Of a stretch of 64,000 nt of DNA, positions 39,207 to 62,840 are shown one piece after another. This stretch comes from Marinilabilia salmonicolor (GTDB lineage Bacteria > Bacteroidota > Bacteroidia > Bacteroidales > Marinilabiliaceae): contig NZ_PVTS01000003.1 in NCBI RefSeq assembly GCF_003003035.1, positions 186,001 to 250,000 on the forward strand, given 5' to 3'. Every line of letters starts with the position of its first letter. The first letter of the stretch is position 1. Both the position numbers and the translations under genes were made by a program. The notes below the pieces were generated by a model. The model saw only the letters and a list, made by a program, of their open reading frames with translations. It searched no databases and was not told where the DNA came from.

Positions 39207-39662
39207 TCAGAATCCTCCCTCTCCTGCAGCAAACTGCTTTTGCAGGGAAAGGACAGCTCTTGCACATCCTTCATTACCCTCGGGGAAAGAAAAAACAAGG
39301 CTGTAAACTTTGGTAGATCGGCACACAAATCCAAAAGCACTATACATCTTACCCTGGGCTTTGTTACTTACAAGCAATTTATCGCCGTCGTACAGCTGCA
39401 TGTGAACCTTCTCAGAATTGGCTCCGCCATTCACCACATTAAATTTGTACTGGCTGCGACTGTTCAGGATAACAGAATATTTTACGGTTCCGCTTTCACC
39501 GCCTTTGTCATTTTTCAAATCAACAATAAAGTCTTTGATATATTGTCCGTCTCCCATTTGAGCCAGGGCATCCTTCAAAAGCGCCTCATGATTGCACTGA
39601 GCATTAGCACCGGAAAACCCAACGCCCACCAAAAGAAGAAGTGTAAATATTAATTTTCTCAT
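39207..39662 (-). CDS. Small exported protein of unknown function
   Basis: 151 residues with a classical signal peptide (MRKLIFTLLLLVGVGFSGANA, cut before QCNHEA). The mature part is ~130 residues, mostly beta-strand, with three cysteines (QCNHEA, FVCRSTK, EGCARAV) and a C-terminal AAGEGGF. The segment VKYSVILNSRSQYKFNV...VHMQLYDGDKLLVSN looks like a small beta-sandwich. I do not recognise the family. It lies 57 bases downstream of the lipoprotein gene, same strand, ending at a strong terminator, so it is probably the last gene of the signalling/ABC transporter transcript or of a short unit with the lipoprotein. Confidence 0.75.
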   Translation of the reverse strand: MRKLIFTLLLLVGVGFSGANAQCNHEALLKDALAQMGDGQYIKDFIVDLKNDKGGESGTVKYSVILNSRSQYKFNVVNGGANSEKVHMQLYDGDKLLVSNKAQGKMYSAFGFVCRSTKVYSLVFSFPEGNEGCARAVLSLQKQFAAGEGGF

Positions 39663-39719
39663 CGTTCAAAATTTTAATCGTACTGTAAAAAGGAATGATA
39701 CAAAGATGCTGATACAGCC

Positions 39720-40640
39720 TTATTTAACAATATCAGTACGAATTTCCTTAATTTTATCAATTATTGTGCCAAGCGTTTCGGGTGAAATTTCCACATGACT
39801 TACCTCGTCCTGAACGATAATAAGCATTCCATCTTGTTCAATGGTCTTAGGTTCACCAACTTCCTTGGTTATTTTCACCTGTTTGTACAGCGCTTTAAGT
39901 TCAGACAAATGATCAATCAGCATTTTGAAGCTGCTGTTTTGCTCATAATTCTGAAGAATGATGTAAAGAATGTCCACAATCTCCTTCTGCTCACCCAGAC
40001 GATTGATCAGCTCTTCATCATTGGTATTCTCAATGACATTGGCGGCAATATATAAACCTTCAACCCAGGCTCCTGCAATTACCAGGGCGCTGACATTGCT
40101 CCGGTTCTGCTGACGCAAATATGAGTCCATCTGGTTAAAACTTGAGACAGACATCTGCATCAGTGAATCCAGATTGCTGGAGTTGGTAGCCATCCTTTTC
40201 AAAGATTCAAAATCGAAAAACTGTCCAACCCTGATTCCATCGGCCAGATTTTTAACTGCCAGGAGATACGAGACAACAATGTTACTTTTGTCATATGAGT
40301 TGATGTATCCCAAATCGGCACTAAAAACACCAAGGTTCAATGCTCTTTTAAAGCTGGTGCTGTAATCCGATATATTCTCAGGATTGTTAAGTATTTGTTG
40401 CGAGAAATCCACCCCGGTGGACTTAATGAGGTTGGCCATCTCCACAGGTGAGGAAATGTTCTGAATTACATCTCCAATAATTTCCTCAGAAAGCTTCAAT
40501 GGCGCCTCCCCGGTAATTGAATCGGGTAATGCAAGCTCATCATCCTGTTGAGCACTTTTCTTTTCTGAATTTCCGGCACATGAGTACAAAAAGCTGCCAC
40601 CGGTCAATATTAACAGAGCAAAAATCAGATTCCTAATCAT
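39720..40640 (-). CDS. Lipoprotein of unknown function, mostly helical
   Basis: 306 residues. Signal peptide with lipobox SFLYSC and a polar, acidic linker (AGNSEKKSAQQDDEL). The rest is predicted mostly helical (EIIGDVIQNISSPVEMANLI, DSLMQMSVSSFNQMDSYLRQ) and ends with EISPETLGTIIDKIKEIRTDIVK (given here as EISPETLGTI and IDKIKEIRTDIVK). I know similar uncharacterised Bacteroidota lipoproteins, but no function. It follows the ABC transporter gene by 69 bases, so it may be an outer-membrane or periplasmic partner of that transporter. ATG start. Confidence 0.75.
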   Translation of the reverse strand: MIRNLIFALLILTGGSFLYSCAGNSEKKSAQQDDELALPDSITGEAPLKLSEEIIGDVIQNISSPVEMANLIKSTGVDFSQQILNNPENISDYSTSFKRALNLGVFSADLGYINSYDKSNIVVSYLLAVKNLADGIRVGQFFDFESLKRMATNSSNLDSLMQMSVSSFNQMDSYLRQQNRSNVSALVIAGAWVEGLYIAANVIENTNDEELINRLGEQKEIVDILYIILQNYEQNSSFKMLIDHLSELKALYKQVKITKEVGEPKTIEQDGMLIIVQDEVSHVEISPETLGTIIDKIKEIRTDIVK

Positions 40641-40709
40641 AACTTATAGATTTATTTTTCCTAATTTCTTAATTATGGTTCTTATACTGCAATGATAATA
40701 AAAAAGTTA

Positions 40710-43700
40710 CTAAGATTTCTTTCTTTTCCATTTTATATTGCCTGCAAAATTCAGTCCTTTTTTTAACAAATCAAAATAAAGCACCACATATAAAAAGGCG
40801 GTAATGATCCACACAACTGCAATATTGAACCAAAGTGTCTCATAATAATGGCCCATAAAATGCTTGGAAGGAGCAAAAAAATGTGTTCTGAAATCCAACG
40901 CCCCGCTCGGTTCCGGCTTCTGATAAATGGGATCAACCATCTGAATCAAATGATTGTCCTCTCTCAAAATCTTATTTTTATCGAAAACCTTTCTCACAAT
41001 GTCGTTGATACTTTCGTTAAAGTAATCATTCTTAATCCGCTCAAATTTCTCACGATTGGCTGATATGTTGGCAGTGAGAAATTCTTCCTTAATGGTGTTT
41101 GCCTTGTAAAACTCATTCTGGTAATAGGCCAGCAACTGATCCAGAAACTTATTGATGTCGGCAGCCATTTCCGCAGAAAAATTCTCGGGCGTTATGGGTT
41201 CAAACTCATCAAAAGATATACCGGCAACACGCTCCACCTCAAGGGAAATTTCATTGGCAATCAACTCCACGTTGCTGACATATTCCTTACGGGTGATATT
41301 TGAATCTCCTTCGGCATAACGAACCGATTCGGAAATGATATCTCTCAATTCAGGAATGTAATAAACCTGTTTAAAGTCGGCAGCACTCTCTTTCCGCTCA
41401 ACCTCAAAAATATTCTTCTTAAAATTATTATTCTTGTACTGATGCACCATCAGACCTTCATAAACCCAGCGGGAGGGCATAAATTCAGCAATGGCAGGCA
41501 CCACATCGGGGCTGGTAAAATCTTTATTCAGTTTATCAAAAGTAAACATGGCACCGCCCAGCACCATTTGAGGAATCATCAACAAGGGGATTAGAATATA
41601 AATGGTGATGATGGAGTTAAATGAGGCAGAAATAATCAACCCCAGAATATTGGCAAAAGCAGAGACAGAGAACAATGCCAGCCAAAATTCAAAGTACATA
41701 TCTTTAATCCCCAGAACCGTATTGGCAACACCTACAAACAATACCATCTGAATAGCAGAGATGGTAAAAAGAATCAGAATCTTGGATACAAGGTAACTGG
41801 ACCGGCTAAGATTCAGAAAGGCTTCCCGTTTCAAAATCTTTGCATCCTTAAAGATCTCCTCGGCACTGATAATTAAACCAAAGAACAATGCCACCACAAT
41901 CCCCATAAAGATATAGGGCGGGATGTTCTCATTTTCCCTGAAAATATACAGGCTGGAGGTGGGATCAGCAATATACCTCACCAGGTAAGCCAGGATAAAG
42001 CCCAATAAGGGGGCCTCCAGCAGGTTTAACGAGATGTATTGGGTATTACTGATTTTAGAGAAAAAGTCGCGAAGTGTATAAATCTTAAACTGATTGAACC
42101 ACGACGGAATATTAAGACTCTTAGGCGGGGTGTCATTCACCTGACTGACAGACGGAATGGGAATTTTCTCCTGAAAATGACCATGCCATTCTTCGGGCGA
42201 CACTTTCCGCTTATCGGTATAATTTCCATACTCATCGATCACATTGGAATCAATGATGTTGAAAATAAGTTCAGGGTTGAGGTTACCACAGGTAGGGCAC
42301 TCTCCCACATCACTGTTGATCTGAGCATCGAGTCGCTTAAAATATATCAGTGATTCACTCGGGTTTCCGTAATAAACAGGGTATCCGCCTGTATCAAGAA
42401 TATACATCTTATCGAACATCTTGTAGATGTCGGATGACGGCTGGTGAATCACCACAAAGATCAACTTCCCTTTGAGTGACAACTCCCGCAGAAGATTCAT
42501 CACATTTTCCGAGTCGCGCGAAGACAAACCGGACGTAGGCTCATCAACAAAGAGCACACCCGGTTCGCGGATGAGCTCCAACGCAATATTCAGTCGTTTT
42601 CGCTGCCCACCACTGATCATCTTATTGAGCGGTGAGCCCACTTTCAGCAAACGACGTTCATAAAGCCCCAGACTTTTAAGCGTATCGTTAACCAGCTGAT
42701 TGATTTCCTCCTCATTCTTATCCTTGAAGCAGAGTTTGGCGTTGTAATAGAGATTCTCAAAAACAGTTAGCTCTTCAATCAGAAGGTCATCCTGTGGAAT
42801 AACACCTATAACTCCTTCCAATGCCTCCTTGTCGTGGTGAAGGTCGTGTCCGTTAATGAGCACCTGCCCTTTGGTAGGCGTTTCGATGCCTGAAAGCACG
42901 TTGAGCAATGTGGTCTTACCCGCACCACTGGCCCCCATCACACCAATGAGTTTCCCCTGCTCTTCAGCAATCTGGATGTTGCGAAGACCGATATCTCCCG
43001 ATTTAAACTGAAACTCCACATCTTTGACTTCATACGTAATACGCGGAGAGTCGGCATCGGTAAGAAAATGCCCCACAACATCAGTAAAGTAGATGGGTTT
43101 TCCCTTTGGCACGCGAATAAAGCTACCATTGGGGAAAAGATATATACGACGTGTGTTGATCACCAGGCCGTTCAGGAAAATCTCCTGATCACCTGTGTAA
43201 CGCATAAAATAGAGATCGGCACTCTTAACCCGAAGAATAATGATGGAACCGTCAAGACCCGGAGCATGAATAAATCCGCCTTTTTCAAGACCAGGATTTT
43301 CATCCCTGACCATCATCAGCTCTTCAAAATCGAGACTCCCGGGCTCATTTTTAATCACGAAATTCTCGATGTGCGAAATCTCGTTTCTCGGCAGTTTAAA
43401 TACATCGGCCACCGTATTGATGATAGCCATGCGTTGCTCGGTAAACTTATGATCAGCATTAACCAGCTCGTACAGACGAACCAACACAACGACCTTTTGT
43501 TCCCGGTTAAGCTGTTTATTGATCTTCTTACAGATTCCCAGAATCCTGACCGAGTCTTTCATTGAGGTAAGGCGAACCTTTCCCTCCTCCTCGTCTTTAC
43601 CCCCTTTTTGATCGGTGGAATGTTTCAGAAAAAGCGCATAATACTCTTCCACAGCTTCAGCATTCAGCTGTTGCTCCAGAAACACTCTTACATACTCTGT

Positions 43701-43781
43701 TTCATTAGATTCAGCTCCTCCATCCTGTTTGGCAATCAATCCAAACAGTTGCATTAGGGCTTTTAGAATTTCTTCACTCAT
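40710..43781 (-). CDS. ABCG-type ABC transporter with N-terminal TerB-like domain (ATPase and permease fused)
   Basis: 1023 residues. About 1-145 is helical and acidic, like a TerB domain (VLVRLYELVNADHKFTEQRM); about 165-240 is a small beta domain that may be FHA-like (uncertain). The ATPase follows: Walker A GASGAGKTT (283-291), Q-loop VIPQDD (Q330), signature ISGGQRKRLN (389-398), Walker B GVLFVDEP (E414), H-loop VIHQPSSD. A CPTCGN knuckle comes next, then an ABC-2 permease with about six helices and a long extracytoplasmic loop. It resembles the half-size exporters of the ABCG/WHITE type. It is 36 bases from the SiaC-like gene, so its cargo may be controlled by that switch. Cargo unknown. 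Confidence 0.85.
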   Translation of the reverse strand: MSEEILKALMQLFGLIAKQDGGAESNETEYVRVFLEQQLNAEAVEEYYALFLKHSTDQKGGKDEEEGKVRLTSMKDSVRILGICKKINKQLNREQKVVVLVRLYELVNADHKFTEQRMAIINTVADVFKLPRNEISHIENFVIKNEPGSLDFEELMMVRDENPGLEKGGFIHAPGLDGSIIILRVKSADLYFMRYTGDQEIFLNGLVINTRRIYLFPNGSFIRVPKGKPIYFTDVVGHFLTDADSPRITYEVKDVEFQFKSGDIGLRNIQIAEEQGKLIGVMGASGAGKTTLLNVLSGIETPTKGQVLINGHDLHHDKEALEGVIGVIPQDDLLIEELTVFENLYYNAKLCFKDKNEEEINQLVNDTLKSLGLYERRLLKVGSPLNKMISGGQRKRLNIALELIREPGVLFVDEPTSGLSSRDSENVMNLLRELSLKGKLIFVVIHQPSSDIYKMFDKMYILDTGGYPVYYGNPSESLIYFKRLDAQINSDVGECPTCGNLNPELIFNIIDSNVIDEYGNYTDKRKVSPEEWHGHFQEKIPIPSVSQVNDTPPKSLNIPSWFNQFKIYTLRDFFSKISNTQYISLNLLEAPLLGFILAYLVRYIADPTSSLYIFRENENIPPYIFMGIVVALFFGLIISAEEIFKDAKILKREAFLNLSRSSYLVSKILILFTISAIQMVLFVGVANTVLGIKDMYFEFWLALFSVSAFANILGLIISASFNSIITIYILIPLLMIPQMVLGGAMFTFDKLNKDFTSPDVVPAIAEFMPSRWVYEGLMVHQYKNNNFKKNIFEVERKESAADFKQVYYIPELRDIISESVRYAEGDSNITRKEYVSNVELIANEISLEVERVAGISFDEFEPITPENFSAEMAADINKFLDQLLAYYQNEFYKANTIKEEFLTANISANREKFERIKNDYFNESINDIVRKVFDKNKILREDNHLIQMVDPIYQKPEPSGALDFRTHFFAPSKHFMGHYYETLWFNIAVVWIITAFLYVVLYFDLLKKGLNFAGNIKWKRKKS

Positions 43782-43817: not shown

Positions 43818-44198
43818 TTAATCGGTGTAAAGCACGTAATCGAATGGGATTTCCACGATGTCTGAATACTCCTCACCGGCCTCCAGCATATCTTCTTCGT
43901 CTTCGTGGTAATGCCATTTAATAACTACCTCTTTCCCGTTCTCCACAATCTCTTCAAATTTCAAAAGAATATCCAGAATCACTTTTGAAGAAGCGGTATT
44001 AAAGTACTCCAGCTTGAAGTTAAACTCGGTATGATCGTTGGGATCTTCAGAGTATTGGTCAATCCAGTCAAGGATAGGCTCGTAAAACATGTTTACGTCC
44101 TCGGGCAATGATCGGCCTGAAATTTCAAATTGACCACTTGCTTTGTCCAAAATAACGTTAGGGGTATCGTCGGTTCCCTGAATGTTTATCACGTCCAT
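43818..44198 (-). CDS. SiaC-family phosphoprotein (DUF1987)
   Basis: 126 residues, small alpha/beta protein of the SiaC family: in Pseudomonas aeruginosa SiaC is phosphorylated on a threonine by SiaB, dephosphorylated by SiaA, and in its unphosphorylated form activates the diguanylate cyclase SiaD. The key segment LEYFNTASSKVILDILL is present, and its threonine is residue 68, the number I recall for the P. aeruginosa site. SiaB- and SiaA-like genes are adjacent, so the whole switch is here. No SiaD-like cyclase is found; the gene on the other side is the ABC transporter. Confidence 0.88.
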   Translation of the reverse strand: MDVINIQGTDDTPNVILDKASGQFEISGRSLPEDVNMFYEPILDWIDQYSEDPNDHTEFNFKLEYFNTASSKVILDILLKFEEIVENGKEVVIKWHYHEDEEDMLEAGEEYSDIVEIPFDYVLYTD

Positions 44199-44209: not shown

Positions 44210-44785
44210 TTATCTGTTTCTGTTAATGGTAGAAGTAAGGATGAAGAAAGAGACCTCTTCGTTGAGCTCCTTAAACTGATAGGATAATTTACTGCCTGTT
44301 TTCTTGGCAATATCAATCAGTCCCAGGCCGGCACCACCCTTTTCGGAAATTTTACTCTCCACAATCTGTTGTTTGTAGAGAGATGACAAACCTGCTTTGT
44401 CCAGGCTGTTGATGTGTTCAAGACTCTCTTTAAGTCCGGGAATTTTAGCATTCCTGATCACATTTCCTGTGATGATTTTATAGCTCTCTTCTCCCCGGCT
44501 GACCATCACAATACCACGGCGCTCATCCTCATCGTCCTCAGAAAGTGTGTCGGCATGTTTGCTGATGTTTTGTAAACATTCAACCATTACATTGAACACC
44601 TTTCTTTGAACCTGGTTCGATTCCTCCGATTTGGCCATATTCCTTTCGGTAAGAGAAGTAAAGGTTTTGGTTATGTCCTGTGTTACTTCTCCTTCATAAA
44701 CCAGGTTAATCTCATTTGTTTTCATCGTTTTGTACAACTGGTATGCAAAATCCAGAAAACGATGGCTTTCAATTTCTCTGCTCAT
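44210..44785 (-). CDS. SiaB-family protein kinase
   Basis: 191 residues, GHKL/HATPase fold. N-box VMVECLQNISKHAD (E69, N73), glycine loop GGAGLGLIDIAKKTG (150-164). Family members phosphorylate SiaC on threonine, like anti-sigma kinases of the SpoIIAB type. The 11-base gap to the SiaC-like gene and 32-base gap to the phosphatase gene show one transcript. The sensor half of the switch is the large GAF/PAS/PP2C phosphatase encoded next to it. ATG start. Confidence 0.87.
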   Translation of the reverse strand: MSREIESHRFLDFAYQLYKTMKTNEINLVYEGEVTQDITKTFTSLTERNMAKSEESNQVQRKVFNVMVECLQNISKHADTLSEDDEDERRGIVMVSRGEESYKIITGNVIRNAKIPGLKESLEHINSLDKAGLSSLYKQQIVESKISEKGGAGLGLIDIAKKTGSKLSYQFKELNEEVSFFILTSTINRNR

Positions 44786-44817: not shown

Positions 44818-47433
44818 TTACAATTCAATTCCTATCAATAAAACATCGTCAACTTGTTTCTCCTCGCCCATCCATTCATAAAACACTTTGGGGAAATAAC
44901 GCCCATAGTGCGCCATTGTATAACTGGCATCCATGGTCAGGGCTTCCCTCATCCTGCGTGGCTGAAACTTCTTCCGGTCGGGACCTCCAAGCTGATCAGG
45001 CAGACCATCAGAAAAGATAAATATCTTGTCTCCTTCCTGATAATCTATCACATGATTCTCAAATTCTTTTTCTTTCTTACGGGGCAACGGTGCTCCGCCA
45101 ATCCCCTTGCGTGTTCCCTGGTACTCAAGCAATTCTCCTTCTCTAACCAGAAATAGAGGTCGGTGCGCTCCGCAATAATCCAGGATATTCTTATCCTTTT
45201 CAACCTTACAGAATGCAATATCCATTCCGTCACGCCCGTTAGACCCTTCCTGATCCTGTTTCAATGCTTTACGTACTTCCTGATGAAGTTGTTCCATTAT
45301 TTCGGCCGATGACAGATGCGGATCGGCACTTACAATATTATTCAGAAGGAAATAACCGATAAACGAAAGCAAGGCTCCCGGCACTCCGTGTCCGGTACAG
45401 TCAACCGCGGCCACGTAAAGGATACCGTCTTTTTCGAGGAACCATGGGAAGTCGCCACTAACCACATCCTTGGGCCGGTAAAAAATAAATGACCGGGGGA
45501 AATAATTCTGCAAATAATTGGTATCGGGAAGTAGCGAGCTCTGTATCCTTTGCGCGTAATTGATACTGTCCGAAATCTTTTTGTTTTTGTCTTTGATGTC
45601 AGCTTCAATTTTCTTGAACTCTGTCATATCATGCGACACAAACAAAACGGACTCCAGGTCTCCTTCATCATTGAGCTCTGGAATACCCTTTATCTCCATA
45701 ATTCGTTCATTACCAGCCACCTCAATCTTTACTTCGGATATAATAGTATCCTGCTCAGACTTAATGGCTTCCAGGGTCTCCTCCACATACTCAACAAACC
45801 GGGTATCCAGTTCCAGCTCACTAACACGTTTCTTAACAATATCGTTGGCAGAAATCTGCACAAATTCGGCAACCGCAGGGTTCACATAAACCAGTTTACC
45901 CATCATATTCACGCGCATAATCATATCGGGACTATTTTCCGACAAACTCTGCATACGTGATTTCATCTGCTCTTCCTTCTCAGCACGCTTCCGCTCGGTG
46001 ATGTCCTGGGTATTAAAAATAATTCCTTTAATGGCAGGATCGTGCAACAGGTTCTTCCCTTTGGTTTCCAGGAACAGTTTCTCACCGTTCTTTCTCAGAT
46101 AAGTATATTGAGCTGTTTGTTCTCCACCGGGAGTTTCCAGCAGATACTGGAACAAATTATTTATAGTACGGTAACCACGTGGTGTCAGGAGATCGGGATC
46201 CATACCATTTACCTCATCATCATCGTCATATCCAAGGATGCGTTTCACAGAAGGGCTTTCAAAAACCAGCTCCTGATTTTCGTTGTAAATGGAAATAAAT
46301 TCAGAGGCATTGGTCAACAAAGCTTCCAATCGTTTTTGGGCATGCGCCACCTCCTGAACCTGAGTTTCCAGCATCTGATTAGACTTCTCAAGTTCTTCCT
46401 GAGTCTCAAGCATCTCCCGGGCATTCTCCCTCAACTGCTCTTCATTTTCCTGAAGTGTTTTGGTAAGACTTTGTGACTCCTCAAGTAATTTTTCAGTGCG
46501 GGAGGTAATCTTCAGGTTATAGATGGTTTGACCAATAGTGGCTGCAACCTCCTCGGCATAAGAAAGATGCTTTTTTCCCAGATGATCCTTCATGAAGGCA
46601 ATTTCCACCACACCTTGCAGCTCTTCCTCCTGCAAAAGTGGAAGAATCAGCAGTGCTCTGGGCTTTTGTTCTCCGATGATACCCGAGGTAACTGACCAGA
46701 AATCATCAGGAATCTCGGTACGATAAATGATCTGCTTCTCATAAGCAGCAGCACCTACAAGTCCTTTCCCAATCTTAAACTCATCATATTCGTAACGGCG
46801 GCGATTGTAGGCATGCATGGCACTTCTCTTCAACAAATCACCCTCCTTCAGATAAAATGCTCCCTGAATGCCTCCCATATAATCGATCAATGCCTTCAAC
46901 ACGTCAGGAGTAAGTTCGGTAAGCGCATGATGCGTACGCAACAAATCCGACATTTGCTCCTTTCCCTTGGAAATATAATTCTCCTCATCTTCGCGCAAGC
47001 GCGCGGTGCGAAGATTTTTCCCCAACTCCAGAAGCACCGATGAAAGTTGATCCTCACGGTTATCTTCTTCAGAAACCTCCCCGCTGTCTCTCAGCTTCCC
47101 GGCAAGTTCCGTATTATGATCTATTTGTTTTTTAAGATTATGTATTTCATTTCGGTAAGAAGCCGTATGAATGTTGATATAGTTACGCACAAACAACACG
47201 GCAAGCGGCACAGCAACAATTAACAAATCAACAATCCACACAAGCCACCACGTGTGGAGGTAGAGTATATTGCTAAAGCTGAAAGGCCGATTCTGGATCG
47301 ATAAAAAGCCGCCCCAGGCCAGAAGTAAAAACAGAAAAATAAAAACAAGCAGATACAACTGATCTCTGACGGATAAAACTCCCGTAAAAAACCACTTTCT
47401 GACTGTTTTCTGTATTTGTTTGTAAACTCCCAT
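44818..47433 (-). CDS. Membrane GAF-PAS-PAS SpoIIE-type phosphatase (SiaA-like)
   Basis: 871 residues: two N-terminal membrane helices (about 26-46 and 64-83), a coiled coil, GAF (about 165-310), coiled coil (315-370), two PAS domains (368-482, 492-608), and a PP2C/SpoIIE phosphatase (620-871). The metal-binding aspartates are in VSGDFPWF (D661), AAVDCTGHGVPG (D678) and IFSDGLPDQ. Predicted to dephosphorylate the SiaC-like protein in response to signals sensed by GAF/PAS; P. aeruginosa SiaA has the same phosphatase but a different sensor. It follows the short GAF protein gene in the chemosensory cluster. Confidence 0.88.
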   Translation of the reverse strand: MGVYKQIQKTVRKWFFTGVLSVRDQLYLLVFIFLFLLLAWGGFLSIQNRPFSFSNILYLHTWWLVWIVDLLIVAVPLAVLFVRNYINIHTASYRNEIHNLKKQIDHNTELAGKLRDSGEVSEEDNREDQLSSVLLELGKNLRTARLREDEENYISKGKEQMSDLLRTHHALTELTPDVLKALIDYMGGIQGAFYLKEGDLLKRSAMHAYNRRRYEYDEFKIGKGLVGAAAYEKQIIYRTEIPDDFWSVTSGIIGEQKPRALLILPLLQEEELQGVVEIAFMKDHLGKKHLSYAEEVAATIGQTIYNLKITSRTEKLLEESQSLTKTLQENEEQLRENAREMLETQEELEKSNQMLETQVQEVAHAQKRLEALLTNASEFISIYNENQELVFESPSVKRILGYDDDDEVNGMDPDLLTPRGYRTINNLFQYLLETPGGEQTAQYTYLRKNGEKLFLETKGKNLLHDPAIKGIIFNTQDITERKRAEKEEQMKSRMQSLSENSPDMIMRVNMMGKLVYVNPAVAEFVQISANDIVKKRVSELELDTRFVEYVEETLEAIKSEQDTIISEVKIEVAGNERIMEIKGIPELNDEGDLESVLFVSHDMTEFKKIEADIKDKNKKISDSINYAQRIQSSLLPDTNYLQNYFPRSFIFYRPKDVVSGDFPWFLEKDGILYVAAVDCTGHGVPGALLSFIGYFLLNNIVSADPHLSSAEIMEQLHQEVRKALKQDQEGSNGRDGMDIAFCKVEKDKNILDYCGAHRPLFLVREGELLEYQGTRKGIGGAPLPRKKEKEFENHVIDYQEGDKIFIFSDGLPDQLGGPDRKKFQPRRMREALTMDASYTMAHYGRYFPKVFYEWMGEEKQVDDVLLIGIEL

Positions 47434-48258: not shown

Positions 48259-48268
48259 AAACAAACTT

Positions 48269-52431: not shown

Positions 52432-52542
52432 CTGATAAAAATTATTTTCAGGCAACCTCAGTTAGTAGAGATATTAACGAACCATAAGTAAAAAGGTTAT
52501 AGTACAACCAATGTTTCTCTATTCTAAAGCGGTTAAGGCAGG

Positions 52543-53643: not shown

Positions 53644-54114
53644 TTATTGTGCCTTTTTATCCAAAAACTTATGTCGTACTTCACCGCTGTCAGTGAAGAA
53701 GAGTATTTTGCGTCCTTTCCGGCCTCCGGTACTGGATGCCACGACAGGAATTTTCTTCTCTTCTAAAATCAGCCTGGCCACCCTGATATTCCTTTCACCA
53801 ATAAGCGTTCCGTTGGCCCCGCTTTCAATAAGCTCCCCACCGCCAAAAATCTTGGCTTTAAGGTTCTCTCTGCGTGCACCCAACTGGCCCATCTTCTCCA
53901 ATAATTTATCAATGGCGATATTTCCGTATTTGGGAGATGCCAGGTCGTTACCGTTCCAGTTGGGCAGCATATAATGGTTAATGCCCCCTATCCGGGTAAC
54001 CGGATCCCACAAACATATCGCCACACAGGAGCCAAGAATGGTCTTTACCACATACGGCTCTTTACTGGCAAATAAGGTGGATGGATATAAAAAATGTTGT
54101 GAATATTGCTCCAT
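53644..54114 (-). CDS. cheD: Chemoreceptor glutamine deamidase CheD
   Basis: 156 residues. The catalytic Cys is in TILGSCVAICLWD (C30) and the His in GGINHYMLP (H47), with FGGGELIES and GERNIRVARLIL as further family strands. CheD deamidates glutamines of MCPs, readying them for methylation, and in some species binds CheC. No CheC or CheX is encoded here. 11 bases downstream of the histidine-kinase-like gene. Confidence 0.92.
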   Translation of the reverse strand: MEQYSQHFLYPSTLFASKEPYVVKTILGSCVAICLWDPVTRIGGINHYMLPNWNGNDLASPKYGNIAIDKLLEKMGQLGARRENLKAKIFGGGELIESGANGTLIGERNIRVARLILEEKKIPVVASSTGGRKGRKILFFTDSGEVRHKFLDKKAQ

Positions 54115-55167: not shown

Positions 55168-56034
55168 CTACACCCGCTTAAAAATGGTTGGTTTAACATG
55201 TTCAAGCTGCACATCCATGCCGGATAACGATTCTGAATGGCCAATAAAAAAATAGCCGTCTGAACTGAGATGCCTGCACAAACGGTTAATAACCTTCTCC
55301 TGAGTTATCCTGTCAAAATAGATTAGTACATTTCTACAGAAAATCACATCAAAAGTTTCACTAATGTCATAAACAGAGTCCATAAGATTTAGGTATCTCA
55401 GCTTCAAATTGGCTTGAAGTTCGGGAACCACCCTTACCGTCGGATTCACTCTGTCTTTACTCCTTAAAAAGTATCTCCGTTTCAGATCGATGGGAACCAT
55501 GTCTATCTTAGACTCTTTATAAACCCCACGCGCAGCTGTCTGCAGCATTTGGCTGGAAATATCGGTACCCAGAATTTCATATCTGAAACGCGGATTCGCC
55601 AATTTGAATTCATTCAGCGCAATGGCGATGGTGTAACCCTCTTCTCCACTGGATGAACCGGCACTCCAAACCTTAAAAGGCCGGCTGAAACCGGTAGATT
55701 CGGCAAATCCGGGAAGCACATGATCTCTGAGGAAAGCGAAATGAACCGGTTCCCTGTAGAAATCAGTTTTATTGGTAGTAACCACATTCAAAAAGTTCAA
55801 AAGCTCCCGTTCCTGACCCTCTTTACTAAAAAAATACTCTTTATATTCTGTATAGGAGTTCATTTTGAGTTCCCGGATTCTCTTGAGCAGACGCCCCTGC
55901 AGCATAATCCGTTTTACAGGAGGCATTTTTATGCCATATTCGGTAAAGATGTACTTGCTGAAAGCCTGAAAATCCTTCTCAGACAATTCTGCTTTAAAGC
56001 AATCAAATCCCTTATTTCCTGAATTACTCTCCAC
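55168..56034 (-). CDS. cheR: Chemotaxis protein methyltransferase CheR
   Basis: 288 residues from a GTG at 56034; no nearby ATG is available. Complete CheR: N-terminal helical domain with MLQGRLLKRIRELK, TTNKTDFYREPVHFAFL, SAM loop VWSAGSSSGEEGYT (122-135), GTDISSQMLQTAARGVY, and FCRNVLIYFDRITQE. It methylates receptor glutamates. 15 bases separate it from the CheW gene upstream. The MCP at 60386 ends in a CheR-docking-like pentapeptide, which this or the second CheR may bind. Confidence 0.93.
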   Translation of the reverse strand: MESNSGNKGFDCFKAELSEKDFQAFSKYIFTEYGIKMPPVKRIMLQGRLLKRIRELKMNSYTEYKEYFFSKEGQERELLNFLNVVTTNKTDFYREPVHFAFLRDHVLPGFAESTGFSRPFKVWSAGSSSGEEGYTIAIALNEFKLANPRFRYEILGTDISSQMLQTAARGVYKESKIDMVPIDLKRRYFLRSKDRVNPTVRVVPELQANLKLRYLNLMDSVYDISETFDVIFCRNVLIYFDRITQEKVINRLCRHLSSDGYFFIGHSESLSGMDVQLEHVKPTIFKRV

Positions 56035-56049: not shown

Positions 56050-56523
56050 CTATTGCTCTTTGGCTGCTGCCAATATTTTATCCATTTCAATAACATCGTT
56101 CCGGGTAAAGACCTGATCCGGATCCAGTACAAAGACAAACGCTCCGTCTTTACTATATGTTCCGGACACATATCCCGGCTTATACTCCTGATGAATAGAT
56201 TTTAACTCTCCCTCTTCCAGCTCCAGCACATCGGATACTGCATCAGCCATAACGGCCACCCGGTAATCATCCTCTTCACCCTCTTTTTGCAGATTCAGTA
56301 TCACAATTACCGAATTTTGTGATGCCTCCACCGATCCAAGATTAAATTTCAGTCCGGTGTTAATCAAGGGAATCACTTCATCGCGGAATTCAATAAGGCC
56401 GGCAATAAAATCCACCTTTTGGGGCACTGGCTTTGGCTTTTCATATTCTCTGATTTCCATCACATGAGAAACATGAACAGCAAAGACCTCATCAACTACT
56501 TTAAATGTCAGATATGAATTCAT
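56050..56523 (-). CDS. cheW: CheW-type coupling protein
   Basis: 157 residues. The CheW double barrel is evident: YLTFKVVDEVFAVHVSHVMEI at the start (given in part: LTFKVVDEVFAVHV), VDFIAGLIEFRDEVIPLINTG, VIVILNLQ, VAVMADAVSDVLEL. It links MCPs to CheA. One of two CheW genes; the short C-terminal tail AAAKEQ is not conserved in the other. Two CheW proteins with only one MCP in the cluster hint at further receptors elsewhere or at different array positions. Confidence 0.91.
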   Translation of the reverse strand: MNSYLTFKVVDEVFAVHVSHVMEIREYEKPKPVPQKVDFIAGLIEFRDEVIPLINTGLKFNLGSVEASQNSVIVILNLQKEGEEDDYRVAVMADAVSDVLELEEGELKSIHQEYKPGYVSGTYSKDGAFVFVLDPDQVFTRNDVIEMDKILAAAKEQ

Positions 56524-56567: not shown

Positions 56568-57017
56568 TTAAACTTCGGCGGCTACAACCAGTTCTTCAAT
56601 ATCGATGATATGAACAAACTGATTGTCCATAGAAAAAGTTCCGTGAAAATTCCGAAGCATACTTTCTTCCTTGTCTGCAACAGTCGGTTTTATTTCCAGA
56701 CCGTCTGTTTCAACCACCTCCTTAACCATATCCACAATAAGGCCAAGACTACTGTCCTGCTGTTCTTCGGGGTTAATAACCACCACAGCGGAGTCATTGG
56801 TCAGTTCGGTGTTTGTAAACCCCATCATTAACCTTAAATCGACCACCGGAATGATATTTCCGTGAAGATTGAGCACTCCCACCATAAAATCAGGTGTATT
56901 AGGAACTTTTGTTATCTCGGGTACTTCAAGAATATGATTGACTCTCATTGCGTCAATGGCAAAAAACTCATCCTGAAGCTTAAAAGATAAAAGTGTACTA
57001 TAGCTGTTTTCCGACAT
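56568..57017 (-). CDS. cheW: CheW-type coupling protein
   Basis: 149 residues from ATG 57017 (a TTG at 57026 is in frame). CheW pattern: LLSFKLQDEFFAIDAMRVNH, PDFMVGVLNLHGNIIPVVDL, VVVINPEE, LGLIVDMVKEVVE. Encoded 12 bases after cheA, so it is the likely main adaptor of this kinase. It differs considerably from the CheW at 56050-56523, so the two are old duplicates or have separate roles. Confidence 0.92.
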   Translation of the reverse strand: MSENSYSTLLSFKLQDEFFAIDAMRVNHILEVPEITKVPNTPDFMVGVLNLHGNIIPVVDLRLMMGFTNTELTNDSAVVVINPEEQQDSSLGLIVDMVKEVVETDGLEIKPTVADKEESMLRNFHGTFSMDNQFVHIIDIEELVVAAEV

Positions 57018-57029
57018 AATCACCAAAAA

Positions 57030-59120
57030 TTAAAATTCTTCCTTTTTCTTTCCCTCTTCCTTTTTCTTTCCCTTAAACTTTCCGGAAGAATTCATTTGCA
57101 AAACCCGGTTGGTATCAATTACCAGAGAAATGGTGCCGTCTCCGAGAATGGAAGCTCCGGAAACCACCTCATGTGTTTTGAGATAACGGCCCAATGGTTT
57201 CACCACCGTTTGATACTCCCCAAGAACTTCGTCAACCAAAAGCCCGAGACGCTTATCGTCATGTTTTACCAGAATCATCTGGGGCACCTCCATCTCAGCC
57301 TTCTCTTCTTTAAACACATCGCGCATATCCACATAAGGGATTTGCTCATTTTCAATCACCACGACCTTGTTGAAGGAGTTTTTCAGCTGGTTTTGATTGA
57401 GGGCAAAAATTTTCTCGATAGAAGAAATAGGTATCACATACTGGTTATCAACCACTTTCACAAGAAGTCCGTCAATGATTGACAGCGTGAGGGGCAATCG
57501 TAAAGTAATGGTTGTACCCTGACCCGCATCGGAATCAATGGACACTTCACCACGTATTTCTGAAATCTTTTTGCGAACCACATCCATTCCTACCCCACGT
57601 CCGGAAACATCAGACACAGTCTCCCGGGTTGAGAAACCACTGGTAAAAATAAGGTTGAGAACTTCCTTGTCCGAAAGCTCGGCAGCTTCATCAATAATCC
57701 CTTTGGCAATGGCCTTTTTCCGAATATCCTCAACATTGATTCCCTTACCATCATCGGTAACTTCAATCAATACATTGGCACCGGCATGATAGGCTTTGAA
57801 GTAGATGTTTCCTTTAGGGGATTTTCCTGCGGCAACCCGCTCGTCAGGCATTTCAATACCATGATCCACCGAGTTTCTCAGAATATGTAACAATGGATCT
57901 GTAAGGTGTTCGATAATGTTTTTATCCAGTTCGATATCTCCACCCTCAATTACAAAATCAATCTCTTTACCCAGCTCTTTGGACAAATCACGAACCAGGC
58001 GCTGAAAGCGCATCAATTCACTTTGCATCGGGATAAGACTGATCTCAAAGGCATTATCACGCAACTGACGTGACAATTTCTGAACGTTTTCGGCAAGACC
58101 CAGAATATCGTTCTCACCTTTTTTCTCCGCATAAACGCTCAACTGTGCCTGAACGGTAACCAATTCACTTACAAGATTGACCAGTTCATCAATCTTCATA
58201 GAGGATACTCTGATACTTGAGATCTTGTGTTCCTTAAAGGCCTTCTTTTTTTTCTGTTCTTTATCCTCCGCATCCTTTTGCACATTTTCCGGAGCTGCAG
58301 GCTCATCTTTCTTGAGCAGAATCTTCAGATCGCTGACCTTTATCAGAGAGTTGGCATTTCGGGCATTACTGATTAATTTTTTTATTCCCTGATTTACCTC
58401 AAATCCACCTGAACAAACTTCTTCCACAGTAAGGTCACACTCATCTTCTACAAAAATGAAGACATCCTTAATTTCGTTGAGAGATTCGGTGGTCGTTAGC
58501 AAAATCTGCCATAGACAGTAGTTATTCTCCGGCTCCAGCGGTTCAAAAGAAGGAACTTTATGGGTATAGACAATACTATAACCTTCGCCGAGAGCATGAA
58601 GGTCGTCAAGCAAAAACAGCGGATTGGTACCATTCTGCAAAAGCTCTTCCTTAGGGACAAAAGAAATTAGATAAGTCTTCTCTCCATCATCGACAACGGG
58701 AGCAGATGATGCAGACACCTCAGCAACAGGAGCAGCACTTCCGGTTTCGGAAAAAGACTGAATACGTCCCATAAAAGCATGGTATGCATCCAGATCATCC
58801 TTCTCGGTAAGATCTCCTTTATCAAGAAGAGATTTAATCTCATCCACTGCTGAAAAAGTCAAAGAAATCAAATCGGGAGTGACCTCAAGTTTGTCATTTC
58901 TGACCTTATCAAAAATATTCTCCAGATGATGTGTAAAGTCACTCAGGTGATTGAAGCCAAACATAGCGCCACCACCTTTAAGAGAGTGCATTGCTCTGAA
59001 AATGCGCTCGATCAGATCCTTGCTCTGCATATCATTTTCGAGGGCAAAGAGCGCTTCTTCCAGATCATTTACATTATCCAGAGACTCTTCAACAAACTTG
59101 GCTTTAAATTTATCTATCAT
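57030..59120 (-). CDS. cheA: Chemotaxis histidine kinase CheA
   Basis: 696 residues with all five CheA parts: P1/Hpt with FRAMHSLKGGGAMFG (H45), a P2-like region (about 145-240) and linker, dimerisation helix pair from about 300 (RVSSMKIDELVNLVSELVT), HATPase with HILRNSVDHGIE, EVTDDGKGIN and GRGVGMDVVR, and a C-terminal CheW-like domain. It phosphorylates CheY and the full CheB. The C-terminal tail holds GKKKEE twice, from an exact 18-bp tandem duplication (57038-57073). The separate Hpt protein upstream may add another phosphate relay point. Confidence 0.95.
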   Translation of the reverse strand: MIDKFKAKFVEESLDNVNDLEEALFALENDMQSKDLIERIFRAMHSLKGGGAMFGFNHLSDFTHHLENIFDKVRNDKLEVTPDLISLTFSAVDEIKSLLDKGDLTEKDDLDAYHAFMGRIQSFSETGSAAPVAEVSASSAPVVDDGEKTYLISFVPKEELLQNGTNPLFLLDDLHALGEGYSIVYTHKVPSFEPLEPENNYCLWQILLTTTESLNEIKDVFIFVEDECDLTVEEVCSGGFEVNQGIKKLISNARNANSLIKVSDLKILLKKDEPAAPENVQKDAEDKEQKKKKAFKEHKISSIRVSSMKIDELVNLVSELVTVQAQLSVYAEKKGENDILGLAENVQKLSRQLRDNAFEISLIPMQSELMRFQRLVRDLSKELGKEIDFVIEGGDIELDKNIIEHLTDPLLHILRNSVDHGIEMPDERVAAGKSPKGNIYFKAYHAGANVLIEVTDDGKGINVEDIRKKAIAKGIIDEAAELSDKEVLNLIFTSGFSTRETVSDVSGRGVGMDVVRKKISEIRGEVSIDSDAGQGTTITLRLPLTLSIIDGLLVKVVDNQYVIPISSIEKIFALNQNQLKNSFNKVVVIENEQIPYVDMRDVFKEEKAEMEVPQMILVKHDDKRLGLLVDEVLGEYQTVVKPLGRYLKTHEVVSGASILGDGTISLVIDTNRVLQMNSSGKFKGKKKEEGKKKEEF

Positions 59121-59174: not shown

Positions 59175-59513
59175 TCAAAGAGCGATTTTTTCAGATTTCA
59201 ATTCATCAACAATGGCATCGATTCCTCTGATGGTCTGTGTCTTAATTTGTTCAGAAAGTTCCTTTTCCCCCTTGCGGATTCTATCAAAAACCTGCTCCAG
59301 TTTCCTGGAGACGGGGGCAAGACTATCCAGTCCGACCATTGGGGCAGTGCCAGCAATACCATGCATGACCATAAAAACATTATTGGCCACCTCTTCGGTT
59401 TTGGGGTTTGAGTTGGCAAAATCAGCATTGACAAACATTGCTTTCAATTCTACAAGATCGTCCATGCTGTTTTGAATAAACGTCCTCCTGATTTCTTCAA
59501 GTTGATTTGTCAT
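59175..59513 (-). CDS. Stand-alone Hpt-domain protein
   Basis: 112 residues, a single histidine-phosphotransfer helix bundle with VMHGIAGTAPMVGLD; H51 is at the phospho-accepting position of Hpt domains (compare CheA P1 MHSLKGGGAMFG). It has no kinase domain, so would take phosphate from CheA via a receiver, or buffer it. 54 bases upstream of cheA. The gap to cheY (75 bases) contains a short inverted repeat TTCTCC/GGAGAA (59558-59581). Confidence 0.85.
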   Translation of the reverse strand: MTNQLEEIRRTFIQNSMDDLVELKAMFVNADFANSNPKTEEVANNVFMVMHGIAGTAPMVGLDSLAPVSRKLEQVFDRIRKGEKELSEQIKTQTIRGIDAIVDELKSEKIAL

Positions 59514-59588: not shown

Positions 59589-59954
59589 CTATCTTAAAAC
59601 CCGGGAAATAGCACTCAAAAGTTTAGCGGGCACAAATGGCTTAATGATCCATCCGGTAGCTCCTGCCTGCTTTGCTTCCATTTTCTTGGCTGCCTGCGAC
59701 TCTGTGGTGAGAAACAAGATCGGAATGTGTTTATAATCATCCATTTCCCTGACTTTACGAATAAGTCCCAGACCATCCAGGTTAGGCATATGCAAGTCGG
59801 TAATAATAATATCGATGGGACGGCCATCCAGATACTGCAGTGCATCTTCGCCATCAACACCCACCAGGACATCATATCCTTCATTCTGAAGTGTAAAATT
59901 CACTACTTCGCGGATACTTTCGGAGTCATCAACGATAAGAACTGTTTTTGCCAT
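59589..59954 (-). CDS. cheY: CheY-type single-domain response regulator
   Basis: 121 residues, a complete receiver: acidic pair LIVDDSE (D9/D10), phospho-acceptor in IITDLHMPNLDG (D53), switch Thr in ILFLTTES, Lys in WIIKPF. CheY normally carries the output to a flagellar motor; with no flagellar genes here, the target could be gliding machinery or another surface process. Encoded 4 bases after the STAS protein gene, so the two are coupled. Confidence 0.94.
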   Translation of the reverse strand: MAKTVLIVDDSESIREVVNFTLQNEGYDVLVGVDGEDALQYLDGRPIDIIITDLHMPNLDGLGLIRKVREMDDYKHIPILFLTTESQAAKKMEAKQAGATGWIIKPFVPAKLLSAISRVLR

Positions 59955-59958: not shown

Positions 59959-60288
59959 TTAATTATTTACAGGGTTACTATTTAACAAATCGGAAAATCC
60001 GGAATTGGAAACAAGACTCTCCAATTCACTGGGCAGTTTGCTGTTCACGGAAAACTGACGTTTATTTAAACCGGCGGTTTTTTTCAATGATTGCAACAAC
60101 TGCAGGAAAGTAATATCCAGATTGTCAGGATTATCCACAACTACAACCATATCTTTGGAGAAGTCAACTTGCTGACCAACCGAATCCTTAATTTTCTGGA
60201 TATAATTAATGGTAAGCTGTCCATTGAATATCACTTCGATGGAATCATCGCCGGTTTTCACCTGAACTTGGAAATTATCGTCCTTCAT
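59959..60288 (-). CDS. STAS-domain-like protein
   Basis: 109 residues from ATG 60288 (a TTG at 60312 is possible). Pattern of a STAS/anti-sigma-antagonist domain: VIFNGQLTINYIQKIKDSV, then VVVVDNPDNLDITFLQLLQSL at the usual phospho-site loop, where the canonical D-S-x-G is D-I-T-F. If phosphorylated, T would be the candidate. STAS proteins in chemosensory clusters, and in Sia/SpoII switches, are partners of PP2C phosphatases and GHKL kinases, both of which are encoded downstream. Located between the MCP gene and cheY. Confidence 0.75.
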   Translation of the reverse strand: MKDDNFQVQVKTGDDSIEVIFNGQLTINYIQKIKDSVGQQVDFSKDMVVVVDNPDNLDITFLQLLQSLKKTAGLNKRQFSVNSKLPSELESLVSNSGFSDLLNSNPVNN

Positions 60289-60385
60289 TTGTTTATTATT
60301 TGTATTAAGCAAGTTGGATGATGCACTCAGAGCTTCATTAGCTACTTTTTAACGGGCATCATCGGCACAAGCCCATATGGTCCTC

Positions 60386-62125
60386 TTAAAATTTCTCATA
60401 ATTATCCAGGTCAAACTCACGGCCCAAATTACCAAGATTTGGTTTTTGAGTGTTGCCTGACCTACCTTCGCTCTTCTTAGGAGCAGCCTCGTCCTTAGCC
60501 TCTGATGAAGCTTTCTTTCGGGTCTCTTTTTCTTTGGAAGACTCTTTAGGGACTTCAATTTTTGGTGCTTTAACATTCACCTCTTCCCCGATTTTAAAGA
60601 TTTCGACAGCTTTCTGAAGGTTAGCCGCAAGATCACTCAATTGCTCGGAACTGGTTGTCAGCATATCAGATGATGACGCATTTTCCTGGGTAATCATATT
60701 GAGCTGCTGCATGGCCTGATTTATCTGATCGGCTCCTGTCTTCTGTTCCATACTTGCAGCAGCAATCTCCTTAATCAACTGAGTAGTCTTTTCTATGTCA
60801 GGAACGAGCATTTTGGATTTCTCTCCTGCTTCCTTCGAAACCTTGAGACCTTTGGAAACCAATGTTACAATATCATCAGCTGCAACCTTACTTTTCTCTG
60901 CAAGCTTACGTACTTCAGCAGCAACCACAGAAAATCCACGTCCGTGCTCTCCGGCGCGGGCGGCCTCTACTGCAGCATTCAGTGCAAGGATGTTTGTCTG
61001 GAAGGCAATGTCGCTAATCACAGAAATTCGCTCTGAAATATCCTGCATTGCTTTAACAGCTTCAGCAGACAATTCATTTGCTACATTTACCTCTTTGGCA
61101 GTTTCAACGGTAATCTTTTCTGTCTGAATGGCATTATCGGTATTCTGATCGATATTGGCAACCATCTCTTCAATGGAAGTAGATACCTCCTCTGCTGAAG
61201 CAGCCTGATCTGCAGAACCGCGGGACAACTGCTGTGAGCTGTCGCGAAGATTTTTACTGGAATGAACCAGATCCAGCGCATTTTGCTTGATAGTAACTAC
61301 CGTGTTTTTAAGGCTCATGGCCATTGATCCGAGCTCACGGGCCAGGATTCCAATTTCGTCATTCTGGTTAACATCCACCCGGGCTGTAAGGTCACCCTTA
61401 CCAAAAGCCTGGGCAAAAGAAACACCTTTTGAAAGTGGTTTGACAATTGTAGTATAAAGAACAAATCCAATAATCAGAGAAGCGGCAATCAGGATGATGC
61501 TCATTAACGCTGTAAACCAGGTAAACCAGGTAAAGTTATCGTTCATGTCCTGCAATGATGCCTCATATTTTGCCAGATAAGTTGTTCCCAGTCCGGAAAC
61601 GTCTTCAATAATCTGGTCACTCAGGGTAATGACATCTCCACCTTCCACAACCATTGGCTCCACCTCAAACATAACCATAGGGTCATCGTAAGATTCGAAA
61701 GAACTCAAAAGCCCCATAATGGACTGATGCATGATAAAAAGAGAGTCAATTTCATGAAGGGCATTGTTCAAAATCTCCTGATCCTGCTCATTATCCCACT
61801 CTTTTGAGATGGTAAGCAGCCGCTCCTTTAATTGAGGAAAGTCCTTATTGTGAATGGTTTCCAGCCGAACTTTATCCGGAGTATCTGCCTGGCGATCGAT
61901 ATACACCCAGTTTTTTATCAGCATCTTGGTCTGAGTAACCATCATCTCCAGGTCGCCCAGCATTTCTGTAGTGGGAGAATAAACACTGGTAACTCCGTTG
62001 GTAAGATTTTTACTTCTGGTAAGTGTTCCCAGGGTAAGAACAGAGTTTATCAGAATAACTACAAGTATAAGCCCGAAACCAAAAATCAGTTTTTGGGCAA
62101 TGTTTAAATTGTATTTTAGTTTCAT
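60386..62125 (-). CDS. Methyl-accepting chemotaxis protein with CheR-docking-like C-terminus
   Basis: 579 residues: TM1 (about 12-34), an extracytoplasmic four-helix sensor (35-198), TM2 (about 200-227), HAMP (228-280), and the signalling coiled coil with the highly conserved tip [19 protein letters not shown] (375-393). A charged, alanine/lysine-rich linker (about 510-560) leads to the last five residues NYEKF, which fit the x-[FWY]-x-x-[FWY] pentapeptide that tethers CheR/CheB. It is the only MCP in the window and the first gene of the che cluster. Ligand unknown; the 4HB-type sensor often binds small molecules directly. Confidence 0.93.
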
Positions 62126-62171
62126 GAACCAGATTTTTTCATATACCCGGGATTGTTGGTGACTGAATCAA

Positions 62172-62210
62172 CAAAAATCCCTGGACTGATATGGACTTAC
62201 CAGTCCGGGG
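62172..62210 (-). terminator. Intrinsic terminator between the yfiR-like gene and the MCP gene
   Basis: On the - strand CCCG-GACTG...CAGTC-CAGGG with ATTTTTG after it: a 5-bp plus 3-bp stem around a 12-base loop. It suggests the YfiR-like gene is not in the che transcript, or only partly. Confidence 0.55.
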
Positions 62211-62327
62211 CTTATAGTATTATTTTATAAATTCATTTGCTCACGCGGGCCTCATATGCTTGATGGCACTCAAAAAAACACCCTCTTACAACAGCATTTG
62301 AGTCCCCCACGCTCCTTGCCTGCTTCC

Positions 62328-62840
62328 TTACAAAACGATGGCAGAAGACATGTTTTCCAATCTGGAACTGATCTGAAGTCCGTTACTTGAAGCATTCCCT
62401 TTATGAATCTCAAACTTAAGAACTTCATTCCGCACCACAAAATTAATCATAGAGCCGTGATCGGTAGCCCCTTCACTTTCGGTAACAATAAGAGAGTTAT
62501 TGCCCAGTTTTTGTTTTATCTGTGCTGCATTGCGTGAAAATCCGGATCTGTCGGAAACAAACAAAACCTGGCAATCGGTAAGGTCAGCCAAAGAGTTAAA
62601 CTCTTTAACCACTACGGTTTGAAAACCAAATTTCTTTCCACCGGTCTGCTGATCAATTCGTCTTGCAATATCAGAGTCTTGTAAAACTCCGATTACAAAA
62701 TCTCCCTGACGCGCAGCTTCAGGCCAACCAATATAGCGAATAAAGTTGAGAGTAAAAACTGCTTTATACTTCGCCACCTGGCCCTGCATCAAAACTGGCA
62801 TTATCATCAACAATGCCAACATCAAGTAAAACTTTTTCAT
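62328..62840 (-). CDS. YfiR-family periplasmic protein (DUF4154)
   Basis: 170 residues with a signal peptide (MKKFYLMLALLMIMPVLMQG). The YfiR/DUF4154 pattern follows: KAVFTLNFIRYIGWPEA, GDFVIGVLQDSDIARRI, CQVLFVSDRSG, LIVTESEGATDHGSMINFVV, and a C-terminal LQISSRLENMSSAIVL. In Pseudomonas, YfiR is a periplasmic repressor of the diguanylate cyclase YfiN. No YfiN-like gene is present, so this one must act on something else; the adjacent MCP, with its periplasmic helix bundle, is an attractive but untested partner. Confidence 0.88.
   Translation of the reverse strand: MKKFYLMLALLMIMPVLMQGQVAKYKAVFTLNFIRYIGWPEAARQGDFVIGVLQDSDIARRIDQQTGGKKFGFQTVVVKEFNSLADLTDCQVLFVSDRSGFSRNAAQIKQKLGNNSLIVTESEGATDHGSMINFVVRNEVLKFEIHKGNASSNGLQISSRLENMSSAIVL

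Follow-up and report, generated by a model that had tools for sequence, protein, structure and literature searches.

The stretch of DNA considered here, in the following called the window, comprises 64,000 nucleotides of the Marinilabilia salmonicolor genome (contig NZ_PVTS01000003.1, positions 186,001 to 250,000) and carries on its minus strand, from 62840 down to 39207, one run of 23 genes. By Pfam and NCBIfam domain assignment, a chemosensory array in this run is followed by a SiaA-SiaB-SiaC threonine switch and this in turn by an ABCG-type exporter with two exported proteins. Of 71 genomes of the host family, 58 have CheA of the array joined to SiaA, and such a conserved run of array, threonine switch and exporter suggests, at the level of sequence, that sensing is wired to export. 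That the locus indeed serves sensory control of the exporter, with receptor and GAF/PAS input arriving via SiaA, SiaB and SiaC, we regard as an evenly balanced proposition. The titles and abstracts of open-licence papers listed in the literature searches contained no report of Sia genes together with an array or an exporter.

Gene order and its conservation in the family

The run opens with a YfiR/HmsC-like periplasmic protein (62328..62840; PF13689, 109 bits), a gene missing from the first-pass annotation of this DNA. The other genes listed there (MCP, CheY, Hpt, CheA, two CheW, three CheR-like proteins, two CheB, CheD, a kinase-like protein, GAF/PAS sensors, SiaA, SiaB, SiaC, a TerB-ABC exporter and two exported proteins) were recovered in place on the minus strand. 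The YfiR-like protein scores below the NCBI cut-offs and its gene precedes the receptor gene though the genome is without a GGDEF match; a YfiBNR system is thus not what is found here. The chemoreceptor (MCP; 60386..62125; PF00015), the only one in the cluster, has a 4HB-like N-terminus, two membrane spans as judged by eye, a HAMP domain and a signalling hairpin from which, relative to E. coli Tar, 7+7 residues are deleted, one heptad per hairpin arm, making it a receptor of the 34-heptad type. According to the available portions of the papers, to which all literature cited by PMC number is limited in the following, 36 heptads characterize F7 and Tar-like receptors and 34 heptads class F8 (PMC7184735; PMC9321776). 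The window receptor resembles class F8 in this respect, whereas the array differs from it by its Sia-exporter tail, and the F8 likeness rests on the receptor and not on a CheA-CheB-CheR phylogeny. The receptor terminates in a tether motif in 18 of 18 array regions, the C-terminal NYEKF of the window protein fitting the motif given in PMC7184735.

The receptor is followed by a STAS protein (59959..60312), CheY (59589..59954; PF00072), a stand-alone Hpt protein (59175..59513; PF01627), CheA (57030..59120) with Hpt, dimerisation, HATPase and CheW domains (Pfam) and 33% identity to E. coli CheA over residues 2-677, two CheW proteins (56568..57026 and 56050..56523; PF01584), CheR1 (55168..56034; PF01739, 193 bits), a kinase-like protein (54126..55025; PF02518), CheD (53644..54114; PF03975) and, as final array gene, CheB1 with a receiver domain (52543..53622; Pfam; 51% to E. 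coli CheB). The STAS name is borne out by the relatives, 17 of 18 aligned members matching PF01740 at E-values up to 1 (best 7e-8) and D59 and T61 being invariant in all 18, whereas the window protein itself has no Pfam match at E 0.001; the alignment contains 17 of 18 relatives (L172 left out) and the window. Considered as a relative of SiaC, the STAS protein was rejected, profile comparison giving no similarity (probability 0.1%). The label kinase-like is apt for the HATPase domain, whose ATP-binding boxes appear intact by eye in the window protein, and misleading as to the acceptor His, which is replaced by Asn in 43 of 43 otherwise well conserved family sequences, the window included. A second CheA, with a CheW-like match beside it, lies at a contig edge (G000:C13:321-497).

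Arrays located near a STAS protein and a serine phosphatase have precedents, two published accounts describing such neighbourhoods. The ancestral stage 1 F7 cluster comprises an antagonist, cheY, cheA, two cheW-like genes, an aer2-like gene, cheR, cheD, cheB, an mcpA-like gene, another antagonist and a serine phosphatase (PMC7184735), and stand-alone STAS and histidine-kinase genes are listed in an F-class gene-order legend of a second paper, which proposes from neighbourhoods in Campylobacterota that a chemoreceptor may be acted on by a PP2C-kinase together with the STAS protein it targets (PMC9239204). With stage 1 F7 the window shares STAS, CheY, CheA, two CheW, CheR, CheD and CheB in the same order, plus a second antagonist and serine phosphatase; it differs by its 34-heptad receptor, where stage 1 has a 36-heptad Aer2-like one, by the additional Hpt and kinase-like genes, and by SiaB, the exporter and a second CheR/CheB, which the available description of stage 1 does not name. 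With the Campylobacterota case it shares, on neighbourhood evidence, a serine/threonine switch directed at a STAS protein and with a proposed link to chemoreceptor signalling; in that case the receptor is proposed to be the target of a bifunctional PP2C-kinase that contains a receiver domain, whereas the window has separate SiaA and SiaB proteins and a terminal exporter. The initial statement restricting known chemosensory classes to the control of flagella, pili or cyclic di-GMP (c-di-GMP) is not supported in that form, the receptor being of the 34-heptad type of class F8 and the function of F7 stages 1 and 2, an ancestry with two anti-sigma-factor antagonists and a serine phosphatase, being called unclear (PMC7184735; PMC9321776).

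Behind CheB1 a membrane GAF/PAS sensor (50551..52455) opens the Sia-exporter module. It is followed by CheR2 (49691..50539), the CheR-like protein CheR3 (48852..49694), CheB2 (48269..48859), a methylesterase without receiver domain, and a membrane protein in what we call the GAF slot (47485..48279), which has no Pfam match here; the Fulvivirga gene in the corresponding position encodes a GAF domain. SiaA, SiaB, SiaC, the exporter, a lipoprotein and a small secreted protein complete the run. Intergenic gaps are, as first described, mostly shorter than 60 bases (16 of 22), the largest being 202 (YfiR-MCP) and 142 bases (CheR1-kinase). Adjoining the locus are genes for a TonB-dependent receptor that contains a carboxypeptidase-like domain (34379-37510) and for an AraC-type regulator (38041-38919).

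The 71 genomes of the host family were searched for CheA and SiaC, the SiaC figures resting on the matches listed. In 40 of them, representing 17 of 21 genera, CheA and SiaC share a strand, with CheA 13.6-15.0 kb upstream, and a further 18 were recognized as joined by reading, G188, G202, G206 and G214 among them. Gene order, read against the window proteins in one genome per genus (17 genera, 17 of the 40), is identical to that of the window apart from unmatched or cut-off genes. The YfiR-like gene precedes the receptor gene in 15 of 18 array regions and was unseen in the remaining three, which are incomplete (L171, L174, L179); the stand-alone Hpt is unmatched in 9 of 17 regions, a short extra CheA match taking its place in six; and in L174 the GAF slot was matched by the GAF/PAS query. 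One genus fails the distance test in 14 of 14 genomes, yet CheA through SiaA is joined in all 14 (L186, L189-L201), with the nearest listed SiaC 22-122 kb off in nine and on another contig in five, and 12 named loci show SiaB-SiaC-exporter without SiaA in front. In a Marinilabiliaceae strain (L120) the SiaA-GAF-CheB2-CheR3 end is inverted and lies a few genes beyond the secreted protein, suggesting an inversion that split the locus. Seven family genomes are interrupted by contig ends or allow no decision (G151, G174, G180, G189, G201, G212, G215), and the family search gave no CheA match in G208 and G213. Che and Sia/ABC halves that are almost never together, the observation named beforehand as fatal to the proposal, are not what the family presents, because they are together in the 58 genomes.

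The Sia switch and the exporter

All three elements of the switch are present at family level. The SiaC-family phosphoprotein (43818..44198; PF09345, 144 bits) has Thr68 in 25 of 25 aligned sequences (24 of 62 extracted relatives and the window, sequences related to one another), at the same place as Thr68 of 6kko; the SiaB-family kinase (44210..44785; PF19788) reaches 177 bits for NF038262 against a cut-off of 85; and SiaA (44818..47433) is a membrane GAF-PAS-PAS-PP2C/SpoIIE phosphatase (PF07228) that matches 6k4e (E 8e-31) and conserves the DC.GHGVPGAL and DG motifs. The NCBI equivalog cut-offs are missed by each of them (160 of 700 bits for SiaA, 87.5 of 225 for SiaB and 90.4 of 150 for SiaC). 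In Pseudomonas aeruginosa, SiaB phosphorylates and SiaA dephosphorylates SiaC at Thr68, and phosphorylation of SiaC blocks binding and activation of SiaD (PMC7647112; PMC8457831). SiaC is STAS-like, and DUF1987 proteins were suggested to be modulators of adjacent proteins (PMC8457831). PP2C phosphatase, HATPase-type kinase and Thr68 of SiaC are thus common to the P. aeruginosa system and the window, whereas in the window SiaA has GAF and PAS domains, the exporter follows SiaC, CheR/CheB genes and the array lie upstream, and SiaD is missing. The lack of a cyclase first noticed at the locus extends to the whole genome, in which a GGDEF match was absent (the same search was positive in 8 of 14 control genomes); a SiaABCD system proper, with the diguanylate cyclase SiaD as target, is therefore not what is found. 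The usual neighbour of SiaC is instead the exporter: among 68 loci for which at least 1 kb was covered, SiaC precedes the exporter gene on its own strand in 62. A second SiaB-SiaC pair is convergent to a second exporter gene (L220; G000:C17:68600-77000), with no SiaA within 8.4 kb and no TerB match by Pfam in that exporter.

The exporter of the window (40710..43781), 98% identical as a protein to its counterpart in Marinilabilia salmonicolor JCM 21150, is composed of TerB, a beta domain and an ABCG-type transporter (Pfam), TerB being found in 42 of 42 members at E-values up to 1. Foldseek places its AlphaFold model (mean predicted local distance difference test score, pLDDT, 81.6; predicted template modelling score, pTM, 0.67) with ABCG5/G8 (E 5e-24) and ABCG2, and like these the protein has the ATPase followed by the ABC2 membrane domain in one chain, with a predicted ABCG fold; it differs from them by TerB and the beta domain in front and by extra long helices (about residues 792-908 of the model) ahead of the last membrane part. 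Regulatory domains ahead of an ABCG-type ATPase are also found in FHA-ABC exporters such as Rv1747, whereas FHA identity is weakly supported for the window exporter. For residues 146-258, an FHA-region chain of Mek1 was the best of two PDB profile matches (E 0.003, weak), hhalign against seven FHA sequences gave a probability of 18.5% (E 0.0013, weak), and Pfam FHA was absent among the families listed (in one list 25 of 51). As support is weak and inspection by eye did not reveal the canonical phospho-threonine residues, the FHA reading, which had first been made from the sequence, was left out of the mechanism.

The two exported proteins resist structural assignment. The lipoprotein (39720..40640), whose Cys21 is invariant in 50 aligned sequences, has no clear structural relative: its model (pLDDT 78) gave no Foldseek match at E 0.001, VIA-align Z scores are at most 8.1, of little meaning for helical proteins, and PDB profile matches are weak, the best being a kinetochore subunit (E 0.00085). 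The secreted protein (39207..39662) has one PDB match at E 0.58. Each with the window, the alignments hold 41 of 69 relatives for the exporter, 49 of 70 for the lipoprotein and 30 of 62 for the secreted protein.

Proposed coupling of sensing to export

How could the array control an exporter? In the reading we favor, the F8-like array would provide one input through its MCP with the YfiR-like partner and through CheA and CheW, with adaptation via CheR1, CheD and CheB1, and GAF/PAS proteins with their own CheR2 and CheB2 would provide a second. Both would converge on the PP2C phosphatase SiaA, which would oppose the kinase SiaB at Thr68 of SiaC. Unphosphorylated SiaC would bind a partner, the likeliest candidate being the TerB and beta domains on the cytoplasmic side of the exporter, and this binding would switch on export of some lipid or surface molecule, with the two exported proteins assisting on the outer side. 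Both the contact and gating of the exporter by SiaC and the step from CheA to SiaA are putative, and the sign of the gating is presumed to follow that of SiaC and SiaD by analogy. The first-pass annotation had already proposed that receptor and GAF/PAS signals converge on a SiaC that gates the exporter; the linkage of the halves in the family and the exporter as usual SiaC neighbour speak for this proposal, and it lost ground in that the full joining is unseen outside the family and the seam between the halves had to be moved. An elaborated version would be a two-layer partner switch, in which the Asn-box HATPase-STAS and SiaB-SiaC pairs, amounting to two serine/threonine kinases and two STAS proteins, share SiaA as their one phosphatase and the STAS protein competes with SiaC for SiaA, carrying CheA output to the exporter, while CheR2 and CheB2 would adapt the GAF/PAS sensors through methylation of carboxyl groups, even where a lineage has no recognisable chemoreceptor; this version we consider unlikely.

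Some of the evidence against a coupling of array and exporter comes from outside the family. Searches yielded 75 named loci with the exporter, 39 of them less than 65% identical and mostly from Cytophagales, for which up to 10 kb of DNA on each side were covered. In these diverged loci CheR2, CheB2, SiaA, SiaB and SiaC precede the exporter in 23 of 30 with at least 7.5 kb upstream, and the lipoprotein (34 of 35) and secreted protein (33 of 35) follow it where at least 1.5 kb downstream were covered; CheA, CheW, CheD, CheY and Hpt were seen in none of the 39. Two MCP-like matches occur (L147, L166). That in L147 was rejected as a receptor, being the N-terminus of its SiaA, and YfiR near the same SiaA was not used as a pair, a TonB-receptor gene and one more gene intervening. 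CheA matches are absent from 13 of the 33 genomes behind these loci, and none of the 13 has a chemoreceptor domain above cut-off (two have sub-threshold matches). Nine of them, including two isolates (L130, L137), carry CheR2-CheB2-SiaABC-exporter and thus a module that stands without an array; the remaining genomes are L126 and L147, in which CheB2 is seen only at a sequence edge or without CheR2, and L124 and L154, which are without the Che pair. Many of these genomes are drafts, so that a single absence is weak. In the family, the array ends at CheB1 in G176, G197, G198 and G216 and the block from GAF/PAS to SiaC lies elsewhere, the GAF/PAS gene of G198 being cut by a contig end.

Because of these four breaks and the Cytophagales loci without array, the seam is to be placed between CheB1 and the GAF/PAS gene and not, as initially, further towards SiaA; by gene order, CheR2, CheR3, CheB2 and the GAF gene go with the Sia-exporter module and not with the array. 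Since Cytophagales loci and CheA-less genomes keep CheR2 and CheB2, both seem to belong to this module, for which the array is apparently not needed. CheB2 retains its catalytic triad (Ser in 42, with one gap, His in 43 and Asp in 43 of 43, a count that includes CheB1 of the window), and CheR2 is conserved in 44 of 44 at most motif positions (CheR1 of the window included). The motif residues of CheR3 are changed in the window species; its Cytophagales rows are probably CheR2 genes, and therefore no CheR3 count was taken.

Within the order, a sample of 149 related genomes contains SiaC and exporter together in 58, SiaC alone in 5, the exporter alone in 5 and neither in 81, their presence agreeing in 139, and CheA is accompanied by SiaC in 36 of 41. 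In at least three order genomes outside the family (G054, G056, G090), CheA and a listed SiaC share a contig and lie no more than 25 kb apart, their strands being opposite as seen by eye, and in the two that were read (G056 and G090; L188 and L187) gene order differs from the window. Up to 21 SiaC matches each were among those listed for order genomes such as G042, G047 and G070, an apparent expansion. Among the genomes examined, the full joining of array, Sia switch and exporter is seen in one family only, and at E 1e-150 the exporter was found in 5 of 296 genomes of a phylum sample, the own genome included.

Could the locus simply hold two neighbors without shared function, the array steering for example gliding and the GAF-CheR2-CheB2-Sia-exporter module acting independently, adjacent by descent? 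The complete module in nine genomes without CheA or over-threshold chemoreceptor match, the breaks at CheB1/GAF-PAS in four family genomes, the 87-base gap at this seam and the presence of the gliding protein GldL in the genome would all fit, and that the module stands alone elsewhere and is separated in these family genomes is the strongest argument against coupling. In addition, SiaA has no receiver domain in its Pfam assignment, and co-operation of the halves is deduced from linkage. Of the terminator-like sites in 45000-64000 (28 against 16), two sit in the YfiR-MCP and CheY-Hpt gaps, the CheB1-GAF/PAS gap having none in the same scan; promoter scans gave 2 matches against 2.3 expected for the Bacteroidota-type pattern and 37 against 34 for sigma-70. 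On the other side, the halves have stayed together in 58 of 71 genomes with otherwise diverged proteins, and the 14-genome genus broke between SiaA and SiaB, leaving the array border intact. The strongest argument for coupling is that SiaA remains at the array end there, though the rest of the Sia module is gone, even if this rearrangement may be a single ancestral event. On balance we hold independence of the two halves to be somewhat improbable.

The partner of SiaC is the other point at which explanations diverge. Of the 14 SiaD-contact positions of SiaC named in PMC8457831, Tyr65, Asn67, Thr68 and Glu110 are the same as in Pseudomonas and ten differ, and in the 25 related SiaC sequences 11 of the 14 are invariant as compared to 28 of 112 others (p 1.4e-4). 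The partner face thus appears to be strongly conserved in a form that differs from the Pseudomonas one, and therefore perhaps meets another partner. This argument is tempered by the facts that without residues 64-72 invariance is 6 of 9 against 25 of 108 (p 0.010), that divergence from Pseudomonas is not greater at the contact positions (4 of 14 identical) than over SiaC as a whole (37 of 118), and that SiaA and SiaB may be further partners of this face. SiaC could also act on a different partner, for example a transcription or sigma-type regulator, the exporter being only co-expressed, as the STAS-like nature of SiaC (PMC8457831), the ten order genomes with SiaC or exporter alone and the 11 of the best 30 SiaC loci without an exporter within 1.5 kb on each side would allow. 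Such a role is nevertheless quite unlikely, as the exporter gene is within this distance at the other 19 and the most regular neighbors of SiaC are SiaB, exporter, lipoprotein and secreted protein. It is more improbable still that lipoprotein, secreted protein and exporter act as a sensor that reports the state of the envelope to Sia switch and array, with transport as a secondary matter. The two extracytoplasmic proteins encoded after the exporter and the long helices in its model would suit this role, whereas SiaA has sensor domains of its own and we know of no ABCG-type protein acting as a sensor.

The exporter as a proposed output

If the locus works as sensory control of the exporter, its new element, as far as gene content tells, is the output, an exporter rather than a cyclase beside SiaC in a genome without a GGDEF match. 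SiaC-type switches would thereby gain an output other than c-di-GMP, and the F8-type array, for which no role was found stated in the available portions of the literature, would gain a testable one, controlled export. The genomes with intact CheR and CheB, for which the searches gave no CheA and no recognisable chemoreceptor, offer in addition a chance to seek the true substrate of this CheR/CheB pair.

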